A DNA stretch of 64,000 bases, from the NCBI RefSeq assembly GCF_030253575.1, contig NC_080561.1, forward strand, positions 26,345,564-26,409,563. The letters are read 5' to 3'. Both the position numbers and the translations under genes were made by a program. Under the pieces are notes generated by a model that was given only the letters and a program-made list of their open reading frames with translations, ran no database searches and was not told where the DNA came from. Shown one piece after another: positions 2,857 through 56,497 of this stretch. Position 1 is the stretch's first letter. Every line of letters begins with the position of its first letter. Source of the stretch: Rhododendron vialii. Lineage: Eukaryota > Streptophyta > Magnoliopsida > Ericales > Ericaceae.

Positions 2857-3563
2857 AGAAATGACAACGGGGCGGGGTCGGAGGTGTGGAAAAGATCCAT
2901 TCTCTAACGATTGAAGAAGCCCCCACATCTCTATTTTTCTCTCACATCTACTCTCCTCTCACATCATGACCAGTGTACCCAGCAGCCCCTCCTATTAGAT
3001 ATCGGGTTTATCCGCCCCGGCCCCACTCCCGCTCATTTTTATTTATTGAGAAAATATGTTCTAGATTCTAAAATAAGTGAACACAAACAATAAAAATTTA
3101 TAAAATAACTATTACTCCTACAACTTAACCAAAATCTATTATCTAAAAGAAAAATGGAAGAGAGAGTTAATATTTTATGTGGTATTTTAGTTTTAAGGGT
3201 AAAAATACAATAATAAAAATAGTTCTTTTATGCATAAAATGATTTCGGGGCTGGACGGAGAGGTTTCCGAACAGAATAACGTCAACCCAAACCCAACCGA
3301 ATTTCATCGATTCTCCCCCAATCCCGATCTGACACCAAAAAATACAACAAAACCCCGTCATGATCGGGGTGGGTTTAGGAGCGGGCGGACTGAATTACCT
3401 TCTCTAAACAGGGGTCTTCTATTATTTGGACGATGGGTACTCTTAACCCGAGTCACTCGACCCTTTCCGTTCTCTGATCCACAACGCCAACAAATTGAAA
3501 TAACAGAAAAAGAAGAGAGATTTTCAATTTGATTTCTGCAGTACATTTTCTTCCCTTCTAGTA

Positions 3564-6500
3564 ATGGATTTGATTCCGGTGAGCTTAATCACCACCCATA
3601 CTCCCTCAACTATGTGTACATGCATCTTCACGTATACGAATCATGCACGCATTTGTGTGGCTTCATTTCCTGCAAATTCATTAGATTTTACCTTGATTTT
3701 ATCCAGTGAATGTGGCTAGGGTTTGACAAAGCTGTGCGATGTTGCAATTTGATTGTTAGAGTCCGTATATTCTAATATGTCGCTGATTTTAATGGTAAGT
3801 CTCGTTTTGAAAGGGATTGAGAATCTCCAGCCCTGACCCACTTATTTTTACCCAAATTTGGGTAAAAAATTCCATTTGGGTATGTCTTCTCCAATGCTAT
3901 ACCCTTACTTTAACCCCAATCTAGTGTTTTTTTTATTTATGTTTCTCCCCCAAAATTTGGGTCAAAACGGCACATTTGTAAGTAATTACAAAGTGAAAAA
4001 GAGGTGTTGAGAAAAAAAGTTGTGGATTGGGTCTCCCCTCGTTTGGGTGAAAAAATGGTAAAACTCCAAAAGGGTAGGCGAAAGGGTATGCCATTGAGAT
4101 GGTGTTTTTTACTCGAATTTTGAGCTTGGGTCGGAAAAAGGGTAAGAATTGGAGATGCTCTAAGTACTTTCAGTCTTTGATTCTAAAGGGTATGACTTGT
4201 ATGTCATAGATCTGGAGCTCAAATTGCTTCTTCGTCGCTGAATGATAAACACATGTTGACCAGAAATATAGCACCAAACTATACAATTTGTTCCTATTTA
4301 AATGGCGTCAAATATGGAGTTCTTACTTCAGATAGGATTGGTATGGCATCTAGTAATTTTCTGTGTGCATTACTGTAGCCAGCTGAGCCACTTGAATCAC
4401 TTTCTGAAGTCTTTTCCTTCCGAAGGGTGCCCTACCTTACTATTTGATTAGTTAGAGAAAAACATGCCCTTTACTTTAAAGAAATTGAAAAGGTTTTGGA
4501 GTTAGCAAATTCGGCTATGCCATCTTCTGTAAGAATATACGAGGGTTTGATGCAAAGAAAATAGGAAAATATTCCATCAAAGCTGAGGCTAGCAAATTCG
4601 ATACTGTCCGTGCTCTTAGCTTGGACAGATTTTGTAAGCAGAGACTGGACAATTTGCATAAAATTTTGAGGGGAGGTGTGATGCCTCCCTTGACAATCCC
4701 ACATGTCCGTCATTTCTACCAACCATTGGCAGCTCTACGCTAAGCAATGGTATCCAAATGAACAACCCCATTGTCATAAGATACGGATAGATATTTTTAT
4801 AATTAACGTTAGCCCATTCTTTGAACACCCTTTGCAATAAATCTTAACAACCCTGCACAGTTATTTTGAACATTTAACCTTATTAATCTTGAATACGATA
4901 GACAACTAGCTGCCAACACAGAGTATGGTAGTTATATGCTACACAAGTATTCGTGTTCTTTAGTTATGAATAATACTACAAACATGAAGCAATTTAAACT
5001 ATTGGACTAAATGTACACGTGCACTAGGTCAATGCATGGTGTTTACTGAACTAATGGCACACACACATTTAGACACTAGTTGATAAACTACATGTTTATT
5101 GAGCCTTATTGTTAGTTGTTACTAATGTACATGGAAAAATAATCTCCAATATGTACATAAATTTCATCTTCAGATGTTTATTTGCATGTATTGTTTTTGA
5201 TCATATATAGGAGTTTTAAACATAAGTAGAATGTCAGTTACTTAATGAATACCCTCAAAAAAACATCTGGAGCTGCCACTGGAGCCAACCAGCTCTGACA
5301 GTACACTGCACTTGGCCCCTAATCCACAAGTGACGGGTGATCCCAAGAAGCACCGATGAAGAGGTCCCTAGGCCCTTCTCTTGACCTAGGTAGGTTGTAT
5401 ATCGTAGATACTTTGTCATCGATCCAATTCCTATCTCTTTGTCTCTTGTGCCACTGACTCTAACGGCGTCCCTTTTGCATGAAATGTTATTGGATTTGGG
5501 GAATTCAATGAAATATTATTGAGCTGCATCATGTTGAGGTGGATTGAATATTTGAATGGCAACACAAAGAGTGTAGATGGATGTCTAATAGTGTAGTGCA
5601 GTGCCTCGGATTTGTTGTACTCTTTGTCTTCGCTGCCGTGGAGAAGATCAGTTTTGGATTCCTAGTGGTGTGTGATGGGCGAATGTTGTTTCTTTCTTCC
5701 TTTTTACTGTTATTTGCATGATAAAAATGCAAATGGTCAAAATTGCTTTACTAGTTGAGTATGGACTTTTTCTGTTCTATATGATGTGTTTGTAAAGTAT
5801 GATTGTCGACGTACATCTGAGTAATGTCCTCTTCATAGTTTATAGTACCAGTCATCTAAGATCCTTCCTTGTTCTGGTTATCAGTTCTGGACTTCTTCCA
5901 TAATATTGGGCTGATTTAAACAGTCTGCGAGTGTTTCAAATTCCAGTAGTAGCATTACATATATCAATTGAAGGTCACTAGCACAACAAATGTTACAGTA
6001 TAGTGCATACTATGATATCTTTTATTGGTTAAGGGATGAAAATGATCTAATCATACTACTACAATAAAAAAAGACAGAGAAATGGCTTCACAAATAGTTG
6101 GATGTTGCTGGTTACCTTTTGATATGATGATTGATGATTGGACTACTTTAATTGCCCGCCCTTAAAACACAAAAAGGGGAAAAGATAGGAAACGGAAGGA
6201 TGATGTTAGAAATGTTGTAGGTGCCAAATGCCAATGCTGATTTTTTTTCATTTTTTAGGAAGTAATAACATTGCCTCAAATGAATACTAAAATGGAATGT
6301 TGAAGTCGGTGTAACTGCTTTATAATTTGAACACGATTCTCATTCTTAATTATTTTTGTGCACAGCCTACGGGGGAAAGCTATGCCCACCCAAAGCTATG
6401 TTTCTTTCATGTGGTGTTCAAGGTATGGTTTAATTCCTTTATTAGTTTTCCTTCATAGCTCCCATCTTGCTATTATAATGTTGCACTCATGTGATTTGGC

Positions 6501-12601: not shown

Positions 12602-15600
12602 ATGCACACAATCACTTTGATGAACATGAAGCCCTTCTGTAGAACCCTCATCAACCGGTACCGCAATTCGGCTATTTTCGGCTTCCCATCTCTGAATACC
12701 CATAATTCAATTACCACTGGTGCATCAAAATTTAACTTGGGTTTGGAGTTTTTGGACCATAATCGTAGAATTCATAGCTACACCCCTCTGTTCTTGGGCT
12801 TTCCTCGTGTTGTTGATAGAACCCAGAAACCATTTTGTGCCCCAACTTCTAGTTGGGCACAACCCAGGGTTTTCTCTAGAACATGTAATGGTGATGGTGC
12901 CTGTAGAGGTGTAAATGTAATTGCTAGGGTTGCATTGAATTGTAGGAGTTATTCAACCTCTGTTGAGCCCCGATTGAATGAAAACAATTTCGAGAGGATA
13001 TACGCTCAGGGTGGCATGAATGTGAAGCCTTTAGTAGTCGAGAGAATTGATAGAGATGAAAACATAGGGAGAAATGAAGAATCTAGGGTTGAAGAAGGTG
13101 TTGAGGATGTAAGTAATGAGAATTTGAAGGGTTTGAAAGAGGTTGAGGTGGTAAAAGCCGGTAAGGAAGAGTCGGATATTGAGAGGGAGGGATGGAGGAT
13201 ATTGCGGAAGGCGGTTGTGACATATTGTGGGAACCCAGTTGGGACAGTGGCGGCGAATGACCCGGCTGACAAGCTACCACTCAACTATGATCAGGTTTTC
13301 ATTCGTGATTTTGTTCCGTCTGCCCTTGCTTTCTTGCTCAAGGGGGAAGCAGAGATTGTGAGGAACTTTCTCCTCCATACCTTACAATTGCAGGTAACCT
13401 TTTGCTGAGTGAATTCAATATTTGCTATCCTTGTGGATATTTCGCAGTTCTTGTTCGACTGCCAATCCGACTGTGATATTTCCTTATATAATAACACTCT
13501 TGTAACCTCTACTTGTGCTCTTAGAAATTAGTTTGTTTTCTACAAAAAATTACTATCTGACGTAGATTTTCTCTATCTTCTTTTCTTCTCCCCCAAGCAA
13601 TTAGAAAATTCAAAATGTTTGTTTCCAACTTAAGAAATTTGTTTTGTAACAAATGTCATTGTTTTCCTTTAAATCCATTTTTACTTCCACTTTCTCATTC
13701 AAGTGCCATGCTGCAGCATCATTATGCGATGGTTTTAGTATGCTTAACATGTGGCCTTTTTAGTTTTGTCTTACGTGTGCTGGTTCTCATTGGACATTGG
13801 ATTGTGATGGTGTCTTTTGGTTTAAAAAGTCTGCCTTGATGTTATGTGTCAATGCATTCATGCATTGAGTACATTCATGGATGAAATAATGATCTATATT
13901 CATGCAGTTACCGATGAATCTCATGCACTCTAAATTGAGTACATTTTACTGTCATAGGTCACTGAAATGTGGGGATAGTCATACTCGGGATTATAGGTGG
14001 TGGGAGATGTTTGATTGATAACTATCGTTTTCATGAATTCTTTACCATTTCCTTGAGGAAATGTGGTACTCCAAGATTATGAAGTATAACAATATATGTT
14101 CCATCATATAGGAAGGTTTCTAGTGAGAAAGTTGCATCTGATGCTATTCCTTATACTACTTTTGGCATATGGCCATCTCATCATGTTTCATATTTGTGAA
14201 CCCTTCCAACTGTTTTCCGGTTTATCCATTAGAGTTGGGAGAAAACAGTGGACTGCTACAGCCCAGGGCAAGGATTGATGCCAGCAAGTTTTAAAGTTAG
14301 AACTGTGCCTCTTGATGAAAATAAGTATGAAGAAGTCTTAGACCCAGATTTCGGCGAGTCAGCCATTGGACGTGTTGCACCGGTGGACTCTGGTAATCTT
14401 TCTCTTTCCGCAAGCTAGTGAGCTACCAATTAACTTGGAAATGTTGTGAAGTCAAGGTTTTTTCAGTTGAGTAAGGCGCCAAATGAATTTTAACATTTTG
14501 TGATATCTTGACTCCTATAATAGGGTTGTGGTGGATTATATTATTGCGTGCTTATGGGAAGGTCACTGGTGATTACACTCTACAAGAAAGGGTGGATGTC
14601 CAGACAGGCATAAAACTGATTTTGAACTTGTGTCTGTCTGATGGGTTTGATATGTTTCCTTCGCTGTTGGTCACTGATGGCTCCTGCATGATAGACCGAC
14701 GAATGGGCATTCATGGTCACCCCCTTGAGATTCAAGTGAGTTGCTGTTTCCTTTGTATTGTATGAATGCCCTTTATGCCTTGTAATCAGATTCATGGCTC
14801 TGTATTGCTGTTACATTCTTGTGCAGATCAGATGTAAAAATCGAGCACATCTACAATTAACTGCTGTAATCAATTCAGACCTTTTGCACTAGAAATGGTT
14901 AGCTGTTGTTTGACTTGACTCCACAACACATCTAAAATGGGCTCTTCTATTTTCTCCTCATTACCATGTACGATGGCTATGTTTTCAAAACTGGTACCCA
15001 AGTACCCCAATGTAGACACTTTGATCCTCAAAATAAGATCCCAATATCCCATTAGTTGAAAAGGAAACCTTTTTATAGCCTTTTACATGGCCTAGAGATA
15101 AAAAATTCCTTTCTTCTTAATATCATTTGATTTAAGTAGGGTTTCAATAACTTATATAAAACTATAGTTTTGTAGTACAAGTACTTGTTCAGGAGTTTCC
15201 CTGTACCCATGCCCAATTTTTTGACATATCCCAACAGCCTAAATTGTTTACGAAGCCCTCACACTTCGCCATATAACTTAGCACATAGGGCTTTTTCCTC
15301 TTCTATGTGACAATTTCTTTTGAAAAAGGTCAGTTTCACTTTAGGCATCTGATAGATCATTATCACCTTGAGTTCTAGCTTGTCCTGCGTATCTTATTGT
15401 GGTTAGTGTGGTACAAAATATTGGGTTTTCTCAAGGTTTTTTGAGAGTTCTTTCAACCTTTTCATGGTGTCTGGTTTGGTAGATATTTAATTGGATAGGC
15501 TGTGATTGATAGCAACCTGTAGTGGTATGTTTTGTCATTTATAGTCTTGAAATGGTTTCCTATTAGCCCTATTCACTAAGGATTATATGACCAGTGTACT

Positions 15601-17656
15601 CGGTCCTTTTTTAAACTATAGTTGTTTTACCTTCTCTGAGTTTATCTTTTTGTGTTCTATTTTGATTTCACAGGCTTTATTCTACTCAGCTTTACGGTGT
15701 TCGCGAGAGATGCTCTCTGTAGATGACATATCCAAGAATTTGGTGAGGGCTATAAACAATAGACTGAGTGCATTGTCATTTCACATCAGAGAATATTATT
15801 GGGTTGACATGAAAAAGATCAATGAGATATACAGATATAAAACTGAGGAATATTCCACAGATGCCACTAACAAGTTCAATATTTACCCTGACCAAATCCC
15901 TCATTGGCTGGTGGATTGGATTCCAGAGAAGGGCGGTTATCTGATTGGCAATCTACAGCCAGCTCACATGGATTTTAGGTTCTTCACGCTTGGAAATCTC
16001 TGGTCCATTGTTTCATCTCTGGGTACTCCTAAACAAAATGAGGCTACTCTGAATTTGATTGAAGCCAAATGGGATGATCTTATGGGCCATATGCCTCTTA
16101 AGATATGTTACCCTGCTTTGGACTATGAAGAGTGGCATATAATCACAGGCAGTGACCCAAAGAATACGTGAGTTCTCTTTGTTCAACTTTTTTGAGCACT
16201 ATATGTGTGCAGGCGTGTGTGTCCATAGCAAAGGGACTTGTTTCAATTCTTTTTGTATTGAGCATCATTTCATTGACTCTTGCAGGCCTTGGTCTTATCA
16301 CAATGGAGGATCTTGGCCAACCCTTTTATGGCAGGTAATTTCAGATTTGATGCAAGTCTATTTGTACCTAGGGATAATCATTTATTTAATCTGTTCTATA
16401 TTGAGTGTTCATAGGGACTTTATAGGGCCCTGATAAGTTGATAACGCATGGGCAATTTTTACTCATTGGGTACAGTAGCCAGAATCAATCTGTTTTGGCC
16501 CTTTAGGGGAAGGCACTATGACACCAACCTCATGATAGAAACAATTCATGTGCGAACTTCTGCTGCCATTGTTGTTAGAGTGTTTTCTTGATTTTGCTAT
16601 AAATGAGAGAGGACCAATCTGGATTCCAACTTTCTGGCTTTCCAAGTAAAAAAGATGATGTCATGTATTTTCTTCTTTTTGTCTTGGTATAAAAAGTTGG
16701 GGAAGAATGGAAGTGAAGAACGCTTATATGCTCAAATAAACCGTAGTTCTATTTCTATATACTATCTATGAATATTTTTCCATGAATCATTGTAGTTGTA
16801 TTGTTGAACCATATTCCACATGGTTTAGAAAGAAAAAAATATAGTTCAAACAAGAATAACATCCACTTTCAACTGGCTTGTCCAATCTAATTTGGTTTTG
16901 AATCAAGTGGAATACTGTATATCCTTGGCACTTTTCCATCTGCTAGAAACAGCATTTGTGCTATCTAAAAGTTTTTTTTTTTTTTTTTTTGGTTTTAATT
17001 TTGAACTTTTACCATAATTCTTACTGTTGTTTGAGTTAGAAATACAGGAATGTACAGAATCTTTATTTTAATCCGTCCCCGCTGTCAAAATTGTTGAAAA
17101 GAGTAATGTTAAAACACATTTCTCTGTTTTATATCTCTAGTTTGACAAAGTTAACAGGCCAGCCAATTTGGCAAGATAAAGTTACCTAAACCAGAATATT
17201 AATTAAATCTAATTTGCTATGTTTGATAACCTGCTTAGCCCAAGACAAGCATGCTTTACCCTAGGTTCTTCAGCCCTTTTAGCTCAGAATTACTTGATTA
17301 ACTTTTCATTTCCTTTTGATCATTTACAGTTCACATTAGCATGCATGAAGATGGGCAGACCTGAACTAGCTAGGAAGGCACTTGATTTGGCTGAAAAGAG
17401 GCTTTCGAAGGACCACTGGCCTGAATATTACGACACAAGAAATGGAAAATTCATTGGAAAGCAAGCTCGACTTTACCAAACATGGTCAGTTGCTGGGTTT
17501 TTGACTTCTAAAATGCTCTTGGAAAATCCAGAGATGGCTTCCCTCTTATTCTGGGATGAAGACTATGAACTTCTTGAGGTTTGTGTCTGTGGTCTTCGCA
17601 AATCTGGCCGGAACAAATGCTCACGAGGCGCTGCAAAGTCTCATATTCTTTTTTAA
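12602..17656 (+). CDS. INVA: Alkaline/neutral invertase, GH100, organelle-targeted type
   Basis: Six exons join in phase: 12602-13393, 14233-14392, 14524-14735, 15674-16167, 16286-16334 and 17330-17656, giving 677 aa. The enzyme hydrolyses sucrose to glucose and fructose at neutral to alkaline pH. Residues 1 to about 195 are a poorly conserved leader starting with a basic, hydroxylated stretch ([15 protein letters not shown]), as expected of a mitochondrial presequence. The GH100 domain runs from about 198 ([17 protein letters not shown]) to about 665. It includes [82 protein letters not shown] and [15 protein letters not shown]. The C-terminus [15 protein letters not shown] is typical of the Arabidopsis INVA/INVC group. 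In-frame ATGs at 12602, 12620 and 12626 could all start translation. No frame breaks were seen. The INVA rather than INVC label rests partly on the SVB-like neighbour. Confidence 0.95.
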
Positions 17657-28874: not shown

Positions 28875-29340
28875 AGTTGTGTTCTAGTAAGAGTTCTAAA
28901 AAATGAGCACTTATTTGTAATTTTTAAGCTTAAAAATAATAGTCTTATTGAAATATTTTTTTGTGCAATATAGATCTTGTTTAATAGATCTTAACGGTGT
29001 AAAAAAATCAAAAAATTATTTTCATAAATACATTCTTTTTAAGTTTAAAAATTGTAAATAAGTACTTACTCCCTCCGTCCCAGTTTGTTTGTCCAATTTC
29101 GACATACGTGTCTTTTAAAAAATTGTCTATATCTCATAATCTATAATGTTATACATAATTTCGAAAACATCATATTTTAGATCTAATTGAGATCTATCAA
29201 ACAATATCTATATTGCATATAAAAAATATTATAAATTAAAATATATAGACAATTTTGTAAGATGTCGTAAATAGTAAAAATGGACAAACAAATCGGGACG
29301 GAGGGAGTATTCATTAAGAACCTGTAGCGGAACAGGGCTG
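28875..29340. mobile_element. Diverged Tourist-like MITE split by a Stowaway
   Basis: The left part (about 28875-29068) and the right stub (29308-29340, ending CGGAACAGGGC) align with the Tourist-like copies at 33240, 34639 and 56271, including the AAGTTTAAAAATTGTAAATAAGTACTTA-like inner region. The Stowaway at 29069-29307 sits between them. Outer ends are worn, so borders are approximate. Confidence 0.6.
29069..29307. mobile_element. Stowaway MITE, 239 bp
   Basis: Ends are CTCCCTCCGTCCCAGTTTGT and ACAAATCGGGACGGAGGGAG with TA on both sides (29067-29068 and 29308-29309). The interior is AT-rich. Confidence 0.93.
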
Positions 29341-33060: not shown

Positions 33061-33065
33061 ATAAC

Positions 33066-34332
33066 TGTAAAAACTTTATGTCCATATCAAAATTAATTGG
33101 CAATGAGTGGAGATGTCTCAGATGTTATTAAGTGATCACTCATTTCACTCCCAAGCAATGTGTGATTCATTTTTTTAGAAACTTTATGTCTATCTCAAAA
33201 TTAATTGACAATGAGTAGAGAGGTCCCACATGTTCTTAAGGCCCCGTTCCGGAACGATAAATAAATACTTATTTTTTAAGAAAATAATTTTAAGTTCAAA
33301 AATCATGTGCTTACGCAAATAATTTTCCTATCACTATGGATCTTATTTGATAGATTTCATTGAGATATTTAATACAGTGCAAAAAAATTGAAAAATAATT
33401 TTTCATTTACATTATTTTTGAGTTTGAAAATGTGAAATAAGTACTTATTTTTTAAGAAGATGTTCTGGAACGGGGCCTAAGTGATCACATATTCCACTCA
33501 CAAGCAATGTGTGATTCATTTATTTAACATCCCCACTCACGTGCAACCGCGTTTTGAGGTCTGTCATGTGTAGTCACTTTTTGGGTCCTATCATCGTGCA
33601 GCCTTTTCGCTGGTCTGTCATCGCGGGGTGTGGATTGTGAATTTTATAAAATATGGATTGGAACGGGCTCCGCTCTGATACCATGTAGAAACTTTATATC
33701 CATCTCAAAATCAATTGGCATTGAGTGGAGAGATCCCAGATGTTATTAAGTGATCACCCATTCCACTCCCAAACAATGTGTGATTCATTTCCTTAACATT
33801 CCTCCTCACGTGCAGCCGCGTTTTGAGATCTGTCACGTATGACTATTTTTTGGGTCCTATCATCGTGCAGCCTTTTCTCTAGTCTGTCATAGCAGGGTGT
33901 GGATTGTGAATTTTATAAAATATGGAGTGGAACGGGCCCCGCTCTGATACCATGTAGAAACTTTATATCCATCTCAAAATCAATTGACAATGAATGGAGA
34001 AGTCTCAAATGTTATTAAGTGATCACCTATTTCACTCTCAAGTAATGTGAGATTCATTTTCTCAACATCCCCCCTCATGTGCAGCCGCGTTTGATATCTG
34101 TCACGTGTGACCACTTTTGGGTCCTATCACCATGCAGCCTTTTTGCTGGTCTGTCATCGTGAGTGTGGATTGTGAATTTTTAAAAAGTGGGGTGGAACAG
34201 GCCCCGCTCTGATACCTTGTAGAAACTTTATATCCATCTCAAAACCAATTGGCAATGAGTGGAGAGGTCTCAGATGTTATTAAGTAATCACTCATTCCAC
34301 TCCCAAGTAATGTGTGATTCATTTCCTTAACA
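33066..34332 (-). mobile_element. Tandem TRIM retrotransposon array (five LTRs)
   Basis: Read on the minus strand, a 115-bp LTR (TGTTAAGGAAATG ... GTTTCTACA) occurs at 34332-34218, 34067-33953, 33798-33684 and 33529-33174, the last interrupted by a MITE. A fifth, 7 bp short, is fused directly at 33173-33066. Directly after three LTRs stands TGGTATCAGAGC (33952-33941, 33683-33672, and one base changed at 34217-34206), the primer binding site complementary to initiator tRNA-Met. Before the next LTR is a purine tract (GTGAGTGGGGA, GAGGGGGGA). Internal parts are 150-154 bp and non-coding. The whole array is flanked once by ATAAC (33061-33065 and 34333-34337). TG..CA ends, PBS, PPT and size define a terminal-repeat retrotransposon in miniature. 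Confidence 0.9.
33240..33477. mobile_element. Tourist-like MITE, 238 bp, inside a TRIM LTR
   Basis: Ends are GGCCCCGTTCCGGAACG and TGTTCTGGAACGGGGCC with TAA duplications at 33237-33239 and 33478-33480. Removing 238+3 bp restores the interrupted LTR to exactly 115 bp. Confidence 0.95.
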
Positions 34333-34638
34333 ATAACAGTGAGAAAATCAAATTCTCACATGCGACTGGTAAAGTTCCGGCGACTCTCCGACGAGCTGAA
34401 ATTCTCTCCCTCTCATCTCCGGCAAACCTAGTACTCTCTCTCTCTCTCTCTCTTCTTCGGCAACGCACAGTCGCTCGTCCGACGACGATCCGACTATGGG
34501 TGGACCATATGCTCCCCTTTCTCACAAAATCTCGCCACTTTTGGCGAGAAACGGAACTGGGCTTGGGAGGGATTCTGGTCTCCCTCCATCTCTCACCCTC
34601 TCTGGCCTTCTTCCCCTTCCAAACGAGGGAGAGATTGA

Positions 34639-34877
34639 GGCCCCATTTCAGAAACCTTCTTAAAAATAAGCAGCTTATTTCATATTTTCAAACTTAAAAA
34701 TAATGTAAATTAAAAATAATTTTTCAATTTTTTTTTGTATCGTATAAAAGATCTCATCAAGTTCTTTCAAATAAGATCCATATTACATATTTTTATATTT
34801 CAATAAACCTATAATTTTTGAGTTTGAAGTTGCCTTCTTAAAAAATAAAGATCTTTTTTTGGTTCTGAAATGGGCTC
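34639..34877. mobile_element. Tourist-like MITE, 239 bp
   Basis: Same family as 33240-33477 and 56271-56497. Ends are GGCCCCATTTCAGAA and TTCTGAAATGGGCTC with a direct TGA on both sides (34636-34638 and 34878-34880). Confidence 0.9.
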
Positions 34878-45900: not shown

Positions 45901-48361
45901 AGGTTTTGCCAAAAGGAATGAATTCTTGTTTTCCTGCAAGATTTCTTGTCGACAGAACACACAGGAAAATAAATTTCATTTTATTTTACTTCACCTCACT
46001 TCACTTTTCCTGGGAACCAATTTCCCACACAACATTCCTGACAACTGAACGGAGCCTAGGGATCTAGTAATAAAATTCAGAAAAGGCTAGTGGAAAAGAA
46101 AAATAAAAGAAAGAAGCAGAATGGCGTGAAGACATCCAAGCTCCCCAATGGCAACATTTCCATTTAGAGGAAAGCTACCAAGAAAAATGGAAATTCCAAA
46201 CATCTAAATTTGTGAAATAGAGAATCCAGGCAAATTCAATCAGAAAAGTGCTTCTGCAGCATGGTTAATAAAGGCCAGTCATATACTTGAGAACAATTTC
46301 AACAAGATCTCCAAAAATTTAAGCAAACTAGGTCACATGAACCGAGACACCCAGGGTTGTCAGAGAAATATGCAGTAGTTACCTGCTCGCGGACATCATC
46401 ACTGCCAGAGCTCAAAAGTTGCACAAATTTGGGGACAGCGCCATTTTCCATAACAACTCGAGTATGCTCTGATGTCCCGGAAGCAACATTGGTCAAAGCC
46501 CATGCTGCCTCAAACTGAGTAAAAAAAAAAAGGCTATCAAGATGGTGCTAGATTAATTTAATCTATTGGAAGTGGAACTATCAGTTCAGATGAAAACAAT
46601 TAGAAGTGCAAAAACTCCCTACTTGCAGTTGAGGCAGATCATGCCTTCCAAGAAACTCCACAAATCGAGGCACAACACCTGCTTTTATCACTTCATCTAT
46701 AGGAGGACAGCGCTCTGGGGAACACAGCAAAACAATACTTAAAACAGGTCTATTGAGTATCATAAACATTTCCAGTACTCCGCACCTACCAATTGATAAT
46801 AGCTTTCTGAACTGAGCGGTTGCTTCAACTTGCGCTCCAGGATCCTCAGACCATACTCCTTGCACCATCAAAGGAATACTTTCCAACTGTTACGATATAG
46901 TAAACAACTAAAAGTGAATTTAAAGCAAAATTGAGCATTGGTTGTAAACAACCACACACTCCCAATAATTAGTTCACCAAAATGAATTTATATTAGAACT
47001 ACATCTAGATGCTCCATTGCTAGCCACAAAATTAAGAGAAAAAGAAACCGGGTCTGAAAGGCTTTACAAACAGTATAAGGAATTGCAAGATTTTACACAC
47101 ATCAAGTTCAAAACGAAACAAAAACTAAATAGCACTTCAGGCTTCCAGTTAACTTCCAAACTGTGATGGGTGATCATTAATTTACAAAGATAAAACTTCA
47201 ACCTATTGACTGAAGTTAACAGGCTATATTCAGAACATTAAGTATACATGAAACAGCAAAATGAAGAAGCAGGATGTAGCAGCAGATCGGCAGCTACTGA
47301 AAAAATAACCATAATGATTGGTTGGCATTGAATAGAGGAAAACAAAGTTAATGTGCGATATTTGTTTTCAGTGTCATTTCTGCGAAAAAACATTTCAGAA
47401 ACCTTTTTTAAGAACAAAAATACTCATCTTCATAGCTTATTCATCTTCTAGTTTTTATGACTTCTGACAAGTACAGCACATGTTTAAAGTTTTCTCGAAA
47501 GGGGATTCTTTTGCAAATTAAGTAGACAGATAAATTGAACACATTTTCCAAAACTCAGTCCAGAAACATCAACCAAAGAAGCAGTGTTCTAAAAGTCGCT
47601 AGACAATAGTCGGGCGGCCGAGCACCGCCTAGCGCCTAAGCGATTAATCGGTGCCTAGCCATCTAGCCCAGCCTAATCTGCCTAGCGCCTAGCCCACCTA
47701 ACCGATTAATCGCGCCTAGCGACCGATTAATCGGCCCGGCGCCTAGACAACCGCATAGGCGCCGATTAATTGGCCGCCTAGTCTTTTAGAACACTGCAAA
47801 AAAGTCCGCTAGGGTAGGCTCGTCTAGTTTGGCCCCAATTCTCTTATCAACCAAACCTACACCACATAATGTGGATGAGTGAGCGCGAGCAGGAACCCGA
47901 GCACAAGCGCCAGCACGAAAACGTCTTTCAAAAACATTCCAAACCTACTCAAAATCACGACAGCTTGAGCGGAGCACGAGGATTGAAAGCGCAAGGGTCC
48001 TACTCAAGGATTACGTGACTCTATATATATATATAAGAACCATACACAATTCAAATTCAATAAAACAAACCCCTCGATCAGGGCAACTGAAATATGAAAT
48101 TCTCAGCGAGGGCAAAACGGGAATTATTACCCTCTTCTCGATGGCGGCAGGGGTGGACTGAGAAGCATCAGAGAGTTGGAGAGACTGAGGATGATGATTA
48201 CTCAGACCCTCTCTGCGCTTCTTCAAGAGATTGTCCTCTCGCTTGTTCTTTCTGATCTCCACCAGATTGTCCTCCCTCCGCCGCCGCGCTTCGTCGCCGT
48301 CGACGCCGAGTTTGTACGACTTCTTCCGGCCCTCCGCGCGAGAATTGGGTCGCAGAGACAT
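37356..48361 (-). CDS. IMPA: Importin subunit alpha (nuclear import receptor)
   Basis: Ten exons on the minus strand join in phase: 48361-48131, 46886-46790, 46714-46623, 46514-46383, 45613-45428, 44397-44234, 44002-43924, 40140-40012, 38928-38801 and 37737-37356, giving 539 aa (family about 530-540). Residues 1-77 hold the importin-beta-binding domain, rich in arginine and lysine ([18 protein letters not shown]). ARM repeats follow, with the Trp/Asn ladder that binds nuclear localisation signals: FEAAWALTN (about 141), AVWALGN (185), NATWTLSN (227), [10 protein letters not shown] (269), then ACWTISN and [14 protein letters not shown]. The C-terminus has [12 protein letters not shown], an acidic EEDEEE stretch and a glycine/phenylalanine tail. 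It carries NLS cargo to importin beta at the nuclear pore. No key residue is missing. The ECH neighbour recalls Arabidopsis IMPA-4, but the paralogue cannot be fixed without a tree. Confidence 0.95.
40992..41844. mobile_element. hAT-type MITE, 853 bp, in importin intron 7
   Basis: Ends are CAGTGTTCTAAAAGG and CTTTTTAGAACATTG. TTTTAAAA stands on both sides (40984-40991 and 41845-41852), an exact 8-bp duplication. The left part is dense in GCGATTAATCG motifs, while the centre is unrelated to the short copies. No transposase frame is seen. Confidence 0.88.
41863..41921. repeat. (CA/TG)n(TA)n(GA)n microsatellite
   Basis: Adjacent CA, TG, TA and GA tracts. They are followed by two copies of a GGGGAGAACTTTGATG-type motif to about 42004. 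Confidence 0.85.
42432..42898. repeat. Two (GA)n microsatellites
   Basis: GA tracts lie at about 42442-42478 (preceded by a GC tract) and 42848-42898. Apparent Ser-Leu or Arg-Glu reading frames across them are artefacts. Confidence 0.85.
44761..44881. mobile_element. Small inverted-repeat element in importin intron 5
   Basis: The left CCTTGTTCATTTGGGGG and the right CCCCCAAACGAACAAGG are inverted copies about 120 bp apart. The target duplication is unclear. Confidence 0.6.
45773..46056. mobile_element. PIF/Harbinger-like MITE, 284 bp, in importin intron 4
   Basis: Ends are GGCCCTGTTCAGTTG and CAACTGAACGGAGCC with a direct TAG on both sides (45770-45772 and 46057-46059). The interior carries inverted GGAAAG / CTTTCC motifs. 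Confidence 0.88.
47582..47796. mobile_element. hAT-type MITE, 215 bp, in importin intron 1
   Basis: Ends are CAGTGTTCTAAAAG and CTTTTAGAACACTG, a perfect inverted repeat. Flanks are CAAAGAAG (47574-47581) and CAAAAAAG (47797-47804), an 8-bp duplication with one change. The interior consists of GCCTAGCG and CGATTAATCG motifs shared with the copies at 7798 and 40992. Confidence 0.9.
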
Positions 48362-48477
48362 TGGCGATTGCTGTGTTGTGGGGGGGTCGCTCGCCCTGGA
48401 GAAGTTCGACGAAATGTCTAGGAGAGAGAAAACTGTAGTGGGAATCGAAGAATAGAAGTTGTAGATCGTGGAGAATA

Positions 48478-48487
48478 CTTATAAAAG
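48478..48487 (-). promoter_or_regulatory. TATA box candidate for importin alpha
   Basis: The minus strand reads CTTTTATAAGTA roughly 120 bp upstream of the ATG at 48361. The spacing is plausible for a plant promoter. Confidence 0.45.
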
Positions 48488-56270: not shown

Positions 56271-56497
56271 GGCCCCGTTTCGCTTTCTCAAATAAGGACT
56301 TATTTTCGAACTTAAAAATAATGGACTTACAAAAATAATTTTTTAATTTTCTTTTGCAGGGTTTGATAGATCTCATTGAAATCTATCAAACAAAATCCAT
56401 ATTGCATATTTTTTTTATTTCAGCAAGCCTAATATTTTTAAGCTTGAAAATTATAAATAAATACTTATTTTTTAAGGACCCAATCTGAAACGGGGAG
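56271..56497. mobile_element. Tourist-like MITE, 227 bp
   Basis: Ends are GGCCCCGTTTCGCTTT and AATCTGAAACGGGGAG with direct TAA (56268-56270 and 56498-56500). Same family as 33240-33477 and 34639-34877. Confidence 0.9.

Follow-up and report, generated by a model that had tools for sequence, protein, structure and literature searches.

Tandem TRIM chains are already known in plants. Tandemly arrayed TRIMs (TA-TRIMs), which include maize Zma-SMART, are composed of alternating LTRs and internal domains within one 5-bp duplication (Gao et al., 2016, PMC4717578). In maize the most frequent form is L3I2, and the paper also figures an inverted array within one duplication. For complex LTR retrotransposons, a heterodimer generated by template switching between co-packaged RNAs has been proposed (Sabot & Schulman, 2007, PMC1950507). 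The set in that study comprises two Triticeae elements and one each from rice and maize, all of which are large and have paired outer LTRs. The authors on maize Wukong favoured recombination (PMC4528315) and the authors on Cassandra allow both routes (PMC7215508). The rice tandem LTR-retrotransposons consist of units that share an LTR in one duplication, and their origin is left open there (PMC11899658, 2025).

The window, a 64-kb stretch of DNA from Rhododendron vialii, contains a TRIM array that can be compared with these systems. Like the Zma-SMART TA-TRIMs, it alternates LTRs and internals within one duplication, but it differs from them in a fused LTR pair, a MITE in LTR2 and its host. 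The rice tandems and the present one both share an LTR inside one duplication, whereas the rice ones are large elements with population data. The elements of Sabot & Schulman have three LTRs, two internals and similar outer LTRs, and share with the present array a flanking duplication; they differ from the present case, which is a TRIM family with tens of arrays, a linkage test, and longer as well as inverted arrays. The multi-LTR TRIMs of Cassandra and Wukong are likewise short, non-autonomous tandem elements sharing LTRs, but the outer-LTR pairing observed here favours the reverse-transcription route. Cassandra is marked by a 5S-rRNA promoter. The presence of many arrays in one genome lets the rival origins be tested.

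Anatomy of the window array

The array is composed of five LTRs and three internal domains on the minus strand and is enclosed by one ATAAC pair. This layout was proposed in the sequence-only reading, and both its anatomy and its coordinates proved correct on re-measurement. Along the minus strand the order is LTR5-internal 3-LTR4-internal 2-LTR3-internal 1-LTR2-LTR1. The features are as follows.

33061..33065, no strand: left copy of the target-site duplication (TSD) ATAAC, exact 5-bp flank
33066 to ~33173, minus strand: LTR1, 3'-terminal when read in element orientation, with the start of its U3 cut off at the fusion
33170..33178, minus strand: LTR1/LTR2 fusion point, 7 bp short, TA microhomology
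~33174..33529, minus strand: LTR2, split by a MITE into LTR pieces ~33174-33239 and 33478-33529
33240..33477, no strand: MITE, 238 bp, TIR GGCCCCGTTC.., TAA duplications
33530..33683, minus strand: internal domain 1, 154 bp, primer site at the right end and purine tract at the left
33684..33798, minus strand: LTR3, 115 bp
33799..33952, minus strand: internal domain 2, 154 bp
33953..34067, minus strand: LTR4, 115 bp
34068..34217, minus strand: internal domain 3, 150 bp, primer site with one change
34218..34332, minus strand: LTR5, 115 bp, the 5'-terminal LTR in element orientation
34333..34337, no strand: right copy of the TSD ATAAC, exact 5-bp flank

LTR3, LTR4 and LTR5 are each 115 bp long with TG..CA ends. 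The sequence-only reading gave this form to the LTRs in general; it holds for these three, but LTR2 is interrupted by the MITE and LTR1 is truncated at the fusion. The LTR pairs of the array are 84-94% identical over the stretches compared. The primer site TGGTATCAGAGC, which we take to be an initiator-Met primer site, adjoins the LTR in two of the three units, and a G-rich tract lies at the far end of each internal, opposite the primer site. The primer site and purine tract expected at the unit borders are therefore present, except that the primer site of internal 3 carries one change. No ORF of at least 150 aa is found in the internals of the array, and no tRNA gene lies within the 64-kb window.

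The array belongs to the known class of tandemly arrayed TRIMs. Its LTRs are direct, end in TG..CA and fall in the 100-250-bp range of TRIMs, and its noncoding internals fall in the 100-300-bp range. The primer site is located at the 5' LTR, the purine tract at the 3' LTR, and the TSD is 5 bp long. The placement of at least three LTRs and at least two internals within one duplication defines it as a TA-TRIM.

The MITE that interrupts LTR2 is flanked by TAA duplications and is presumably Tourist/PIF-Harbinger-like, as judged by its TIR and TSD. It would have inserted into LTR2 after the arrival of the array. Relatives of the MITE are present in the window at 34639-34874, 56302-56454 and 28922-29068, the first being a 77% copy about 300 bp to the right of the array. 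The window also contains exons of an alkaline/neutral invertase gene at 12602-13408, 15587-16171 and 17213-17656 (Pfam Glyco_hydro_100). An open stretch on the minus strand at 48011-48478 encodes an importin-beta-binding domain (Pfam IBB) and possibly belongs to an importin-alpha gene.

The three internals differ from one another at 18/154, 21/149 and 21/149 sites (12-14%), and these comparisons reveal no recent unit pair in the array. The outer pair, LTR1 and LTR5, displays 9 differences over 107 sites, and LTR3 and LTR5 display 8 over 115. Independent insertions, whether nested or adjacent, are extremely unlikely as the source of the array, as is an assembly artefact. Nested TRIMs occur in plants generally, but the shared LTRs, the exact outer pair and the absence of any further ATAAC between the outer copies (plus strand, 33061-34337) argue against independent insertions. 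The divergence of the internals makes a stuttered assembly unlikely. Each internal of the window array is nearer to units elsewhere than to the other internals of the array. This nearest-neighbour evidence was given no weight: even with a single template for all its units, an old locus would appear nearer to younger ones.

Sister arrays, their outer duplications and LTR-LTR joints

The genome searched comprises 532.6 Mb in 13 contigs. A search with the whole array yielded 67 matches from the best 40 of 5660 first-look candidates. The matches were grouped into 40 places, and the 39 beyond the window were fetched. All 39 contain at least two internals, complete or partial; the sample is biased to arrays by the array query. 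A search with internal 3 gave 40 full-length matches, including the window, from the best 40 of 765 first-look candidates. Of the other 39 matches among these best 40, 12 fall in 10 loci of the first set and 27 in loci not fetched before. By structure, the 27 new loci are 20 monomers, four multi-internal loci and three others (L054, L060 and L065). Multi-internal loci hold 16 of the 39 matched internals and account for 14 of the 37 loci in this similarity-ranked sample, which favours internal-rich loci. Sampling throughout is similarity-ranked and not random, and L001-L008 and L068 were excluded from the statistics as repeats of other loci. LTR-primer-site junctions number 596 in the genome within two mismatches, and eight exact double junctions are found at array spacing.

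Two further features were observed among the fetched loci. A second LTR type with the U5 end GGAGTTGGATGCTTTAACA is present in L045, L055, L065 and L027. In L045 and L065 the second-type LTR is followed by the primer site, which may point to a sister TRIM or to a larger element. Beside the array in L015, four repeated 52-bp partial LTR matches occur every ~200-250 bp (2991-3691), possibly representing an LTR-derived satellite.

An exact 5-bp outer pair bounds 15 of the 24 arrays with complete outer LTRs, the window array included. It is present in 12 of 18 same-orientation arrays and in 3 of 6 with inverted units. Exact 5-bp flanks are found in 10 of 14 monomers, and the null for an exact 5-bp match is 0.43% of mismatched flank pairs. 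Three of the nine complete-ended arrays without an exact pair (L024, L026 and L035) continue into internal-like sequence at one end. Arrays that start or end in an internal piece were excluded from this count, including L009, L012, L022, L030, L033, L046, L047, L055, L058, L059 and L063. L046 has an exact ATATC pair, yet stands outside the 15/24 count as an internal-ended array. Nine of the 33 arrays that are LTR-ended on both sides were also excluded, their outer LTR matches stopping more than 5 bases short. L027 is among these nine, though an exact GTAGG pair appears when its own LTR end is used.

Shared LTRs and one outer duplication would also result by default from growth in place, in which units are added to a single TRIM by unequal crossing-over or gene conversion between its LTRs, on sister chromatids or homologues, and one internal is later lost. 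Unequal crossing-over or recombination has been proposed for maize Wukong (PMC4528315). However, the six complete-ended arrays of mixed orientation argue against such growth, because unequal crossing-over between direct LTRs cannot invert units. The exact flanks belong to L018, L025 and L044, and the outer duplication has at most one mismatch in five of the six arrays (null 4.9%). Inverted arrays within one duplication were therefore complex at insertion, or were rearranged by a process other than LTR crossing-over. A host-LTR remainder beyond the inserted unit, as predicted for nested insertion, is absent in L018, L025 and L044.

The window array contains a direct LTR-LTR fusion at 33173/33174, as had been claimed, but the fusion falls 7 bp short of a clean joint. 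An intact LTR-LTR joint would read ..TTAACA followed directly by TGTAG.., and the two LTRs meet at a 2-bp TA microhomology. A genome search for other arrays with the same fusion had been put forward as a check on the multimer model; it found none (34-base pattern, up to three mismatches). The fusion is unique in the genome and therefore looks like a private event. It may be a cDNA-stage LTR-LTR joint trimmed by 7 bp, or it may reflect a later microhomology deletion of a fourth internal, which explains it equally well. Its reading as a junction from circular or end-joined cDNA is thus not borne out, given the single genomic occurrence and the equal fit of the deletion.

A clean LTR-LTR joint is found at one genomic place (21-base pattern, up to two mismatches). 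This is L044, in which a perfect joint lies within an array bounded by a TATAC duplication. Partial LTR-LTR joints are present in L032 and L023, each within a single duplication. These loci speak for the joining of finished monomer cDNAs, ligated or recombined via their LTRs before integration, with the fused pair of the window array as a surviving end joint. The inverted arrays also need some joining step. Such joining is nevertheless quite unlikely to have built the window array. The clean joint occurs once (one pattern, up to two mismatches) against the 596 LTR-primer-site junctions at the same stringency. In addition, joined independent cDNAs predict unlinked outer LTRs, but in same-orientation arrays no pair is more strongly linked than the outer one, as described below.

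L069 was considered as a second clean joint with two mismatches, but is actually a monomer followed by its duplication. In L032 (2604-2800), an intact LTR end meets the inner part of a different LTR at TGGAAT. This motif resembles the primer-site start TGGTAT, and mispriming or misannealing is possible.

Linkage of outer LTRs, middle LTRs and internals

The proposed origins make different predictions for the parts of an array. Growth in place links all parts, and the joining of finished cDNAs unlinks the outer LTRs. Under template switching, the outer LTRs are paired because plus-strand transfer copies one to the other, and the middle LTRs and internals come from different RNAs. The strict test used 12 complete three-LTR arrays and was age-matched, since shuffled partners were drawn from these arrays only. 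Three-LTR arrays without three 100-bp LTRs were excluded from this test and from the comparison of internals in young arrays, and the strict test also leaves out L022, L030 and L033, which carry an extra partial internal. LTRs were unextended in the strict 12-array, young-array and 40-locus comparisons, and were extended by up to 8 bases in the looser, rare-variant, outer-versus-random and middle-odd tests.

In the 12 arrays, the outer-outer LTR distance is 0.0528 versus 0.0791 when shuffled, with 0 of 20,000 shuffles as low. The outer-middle distances are 0.0613 versus 0.0684 (p = 0.021) and 0.0623 versus 0.0718 (p = 0.004), and the internal-internal distance is 0.0659 versus 0.0696 (p = 0.12). 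With looser extraction, the outer-outer distance in 18 arrays is 0.0758 versus 0.1152 (p = 0.0002), and the outer-middle distances are 0.0864 versus 0.0938 (p = 0.019) and 0.0961 versus 0.1022 (p = 0.037). The internals of 19 arrays give 0.0710 versus 0.0750 (p = 0.0497). A paired comparison of outer-outer with outer-middle distances is weak, with 7 smaller, 3 larger and 2 tied among the 12 (Wilcoxon p = 0.097). In three-LTR arrays, the outer LTRs are linked, the middle LTRs weakly and the internals hardly (p 0.05-0.12).

Rare variants were counted at a 6% cut. The number shared per pair is 0.76 for the outer LTRs of arrays (21 pairs), 0.74 for the LTR pairs of monomers (19), 0.25 for outer-middle pairs (53), 0.17 for middle-middle pairs (6) and 0.06 between loci. 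The table leaves out arrays of mixed orientation and those with LTR-LTR joints. LTR1 of the window array is absent from it because the MITE broke the chain, but is included in the test of the outer pair against a random pair of the same array. Over 21 loci, the latter test gives p = 0.0016 at a 10% cut and 0.013 at a 6% cut, or 0.004 and 0.036 without L027. Among 236 informative sites in 18 arrays, 98 set the middle LTR apart from the other two (p = 0.009); L027 contributes 11 of the 98.

This linkage pattern is the signature of reverse-transcription template switching, as modelled in PMC1950507. The heterodimer pattern of Sabot & Schulman is found on average in the sister arrays and also in L027; the window array has few informative variants. 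The outer LTRs of L027 are identical over 110 bp and belong to one U5 type, the end of which also occurs in L045, L055 and L065. The middle LTR is of the other, ordinary type. The internals differ at 7 of 149 aligned sites, and the array is bounded by its exact GTAGG duplication. This structure is what would be expected of a heterodimer made from two co-packaged RNAs, and the difference in type between the middle LTR and the identical outer ones argues against growth in place.

Growth in place had been expected to leave the internals of an array alike. Over 40 loci, which are not age-matched, the internals are no closer within arrays than between them (0.0904 versus 0.0883), and the corresponding distances for LTRs are 0.0826 and 0.0947. 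In the same loci, again not age-matched, the nearest neighbour lies in the own locus for 4 of 99 internals and 25 of 134 LTRs. Rare variants of internals are shared slightly more often within than between loci (0.34 versus 0.18 by chance, p = 0.003, all 40 loci), in favour of growth in place. L012 shows such a duplication within the family. Two of its internals differ at 3 of 146 sites versus 13-14 of 145 for the other internal pairs, and two neighbouring LTRs differ at 1 of 112 sites, with 8-14 differences in the remaining pairs. This is a clear late in-place unit duplication; therefore, growth in place also occurs, and the method can see it. As a general rule, however, growth in place is ruled out by the inverted arrays and by the nearly unlinked internals of three-LTR arrays, and it is kept for L012. 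It is an unlikely origin for the window array, which contains no recent unit pair.

Arrays might also breed arrays, if an existing array or a one-LTR circle were read through and the multimeric RNA reverse transcribed. This route is proposed in PMC11899658 and is compatible with single duplications. However, the position of a unit does not predict its similarity across loci (p = 0.17), and the breeding of multimers from multimers was discarded on this ground. A one-LTR circle predicts identical internals at insertion, but eight young arrays show 2 to 7 differences over 140-154 sites between their two internals, although some of these differences may be later mutations. Tandem transcripts are thus very unlikely as the source. 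Differences at sites that are variable elsewhere show no contrast between LTRs (148/231) and internals (98/154) in 16 young arrays.

Origin of the arrays

Arrays of this family seem mostly to insert preformed. The window array probably entered its site once as a ready-made linear multimer produced by template switching, with an estimated probability of about 0.7. Two or more TRIM RNAs would be co-packaged, and minus-strand synthesis primed on one RNA would jump to the 3' end of another. If the second RNA were unprimed, synthesis would read across the primer site, reach the U5-R at the 5' end of that RNA and then jump again. Every such pass would lengthen the chain by an internal domain plus a shared LTR. 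Plus-strand transfer would copy the 3' LTR to the 5' end, by which the outer LTRs would become a pair, and the middle LTRs and internals would derive from different RNAs. The integrase would then insert the chain and make one 5-bp duplication. The LTR1/LTR2 fusion would arise in either of the two ways given above.

The sequence-only reading had offered a preformed multimer and growth in place as alternatives. The sister arrays favour the former, with L012 as an exception, but the window array is individually too old to add to this. Its units are old and have few rare variants in common; its probable preformed origin thus rests on the single duplication and on the family rule, which it presumably obeys.

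The inverted arrays display a further regularity. Both outer termini are U5 ends in all six complete-ended inverted arrays, and the 5' sides meet inside. In L044, the joint falls no more than 7 nt past one unit's primer site, at the 5-bp microhomology TAGAA, which is common to the U3 of the next unit. Among three further mixed-orientation loci without a bounding duplication, L045 and L063 diverge and L054 has the opposite arrangement. The 5' LTR is completed last in reverse transcription. The two-U5-end arrangement would therefore follow if unfinished 5' sides were joined or if synthesis switched strands there. Inverted TRIM arrays might, tentatively, result from a specific 5'-end failure of reverse transcription, in which unfinished cDNAs are joined by their incomplete 5' sides and integrated by two U5 ends with a normal 5-bp duplication. 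The pattern is a modest new lead, as six arrays are few. No report of the linkage test or of the two-U5-end pattern for TRIMs was found in the titles and abstract openings covered, which lie mostly outside subscription journals and deal with TRIM tandems, multimers, heterodimers, inverted or palindromic LTR arrays, and TRIMs in Rhododendron and Ericaceae. If the proposal is true, a pair of U5 ends would be acceptable to the partner integrase, and aborted rounds of reverse transcription would be preserved as fossils in this TRIM family.

Tandem structure alone is no proof of in-place amplification. The routes of origin can be told apart without population data by the way in which outer LTRs, middle LTRs and internals are linked, and this TRIM family has enough arrays for the purpose. 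If the arrays are products of co-packaging, their unit numbers and mixed types may record the number of RNAs per helper particle, and may also record which subfamilies were expressed together.
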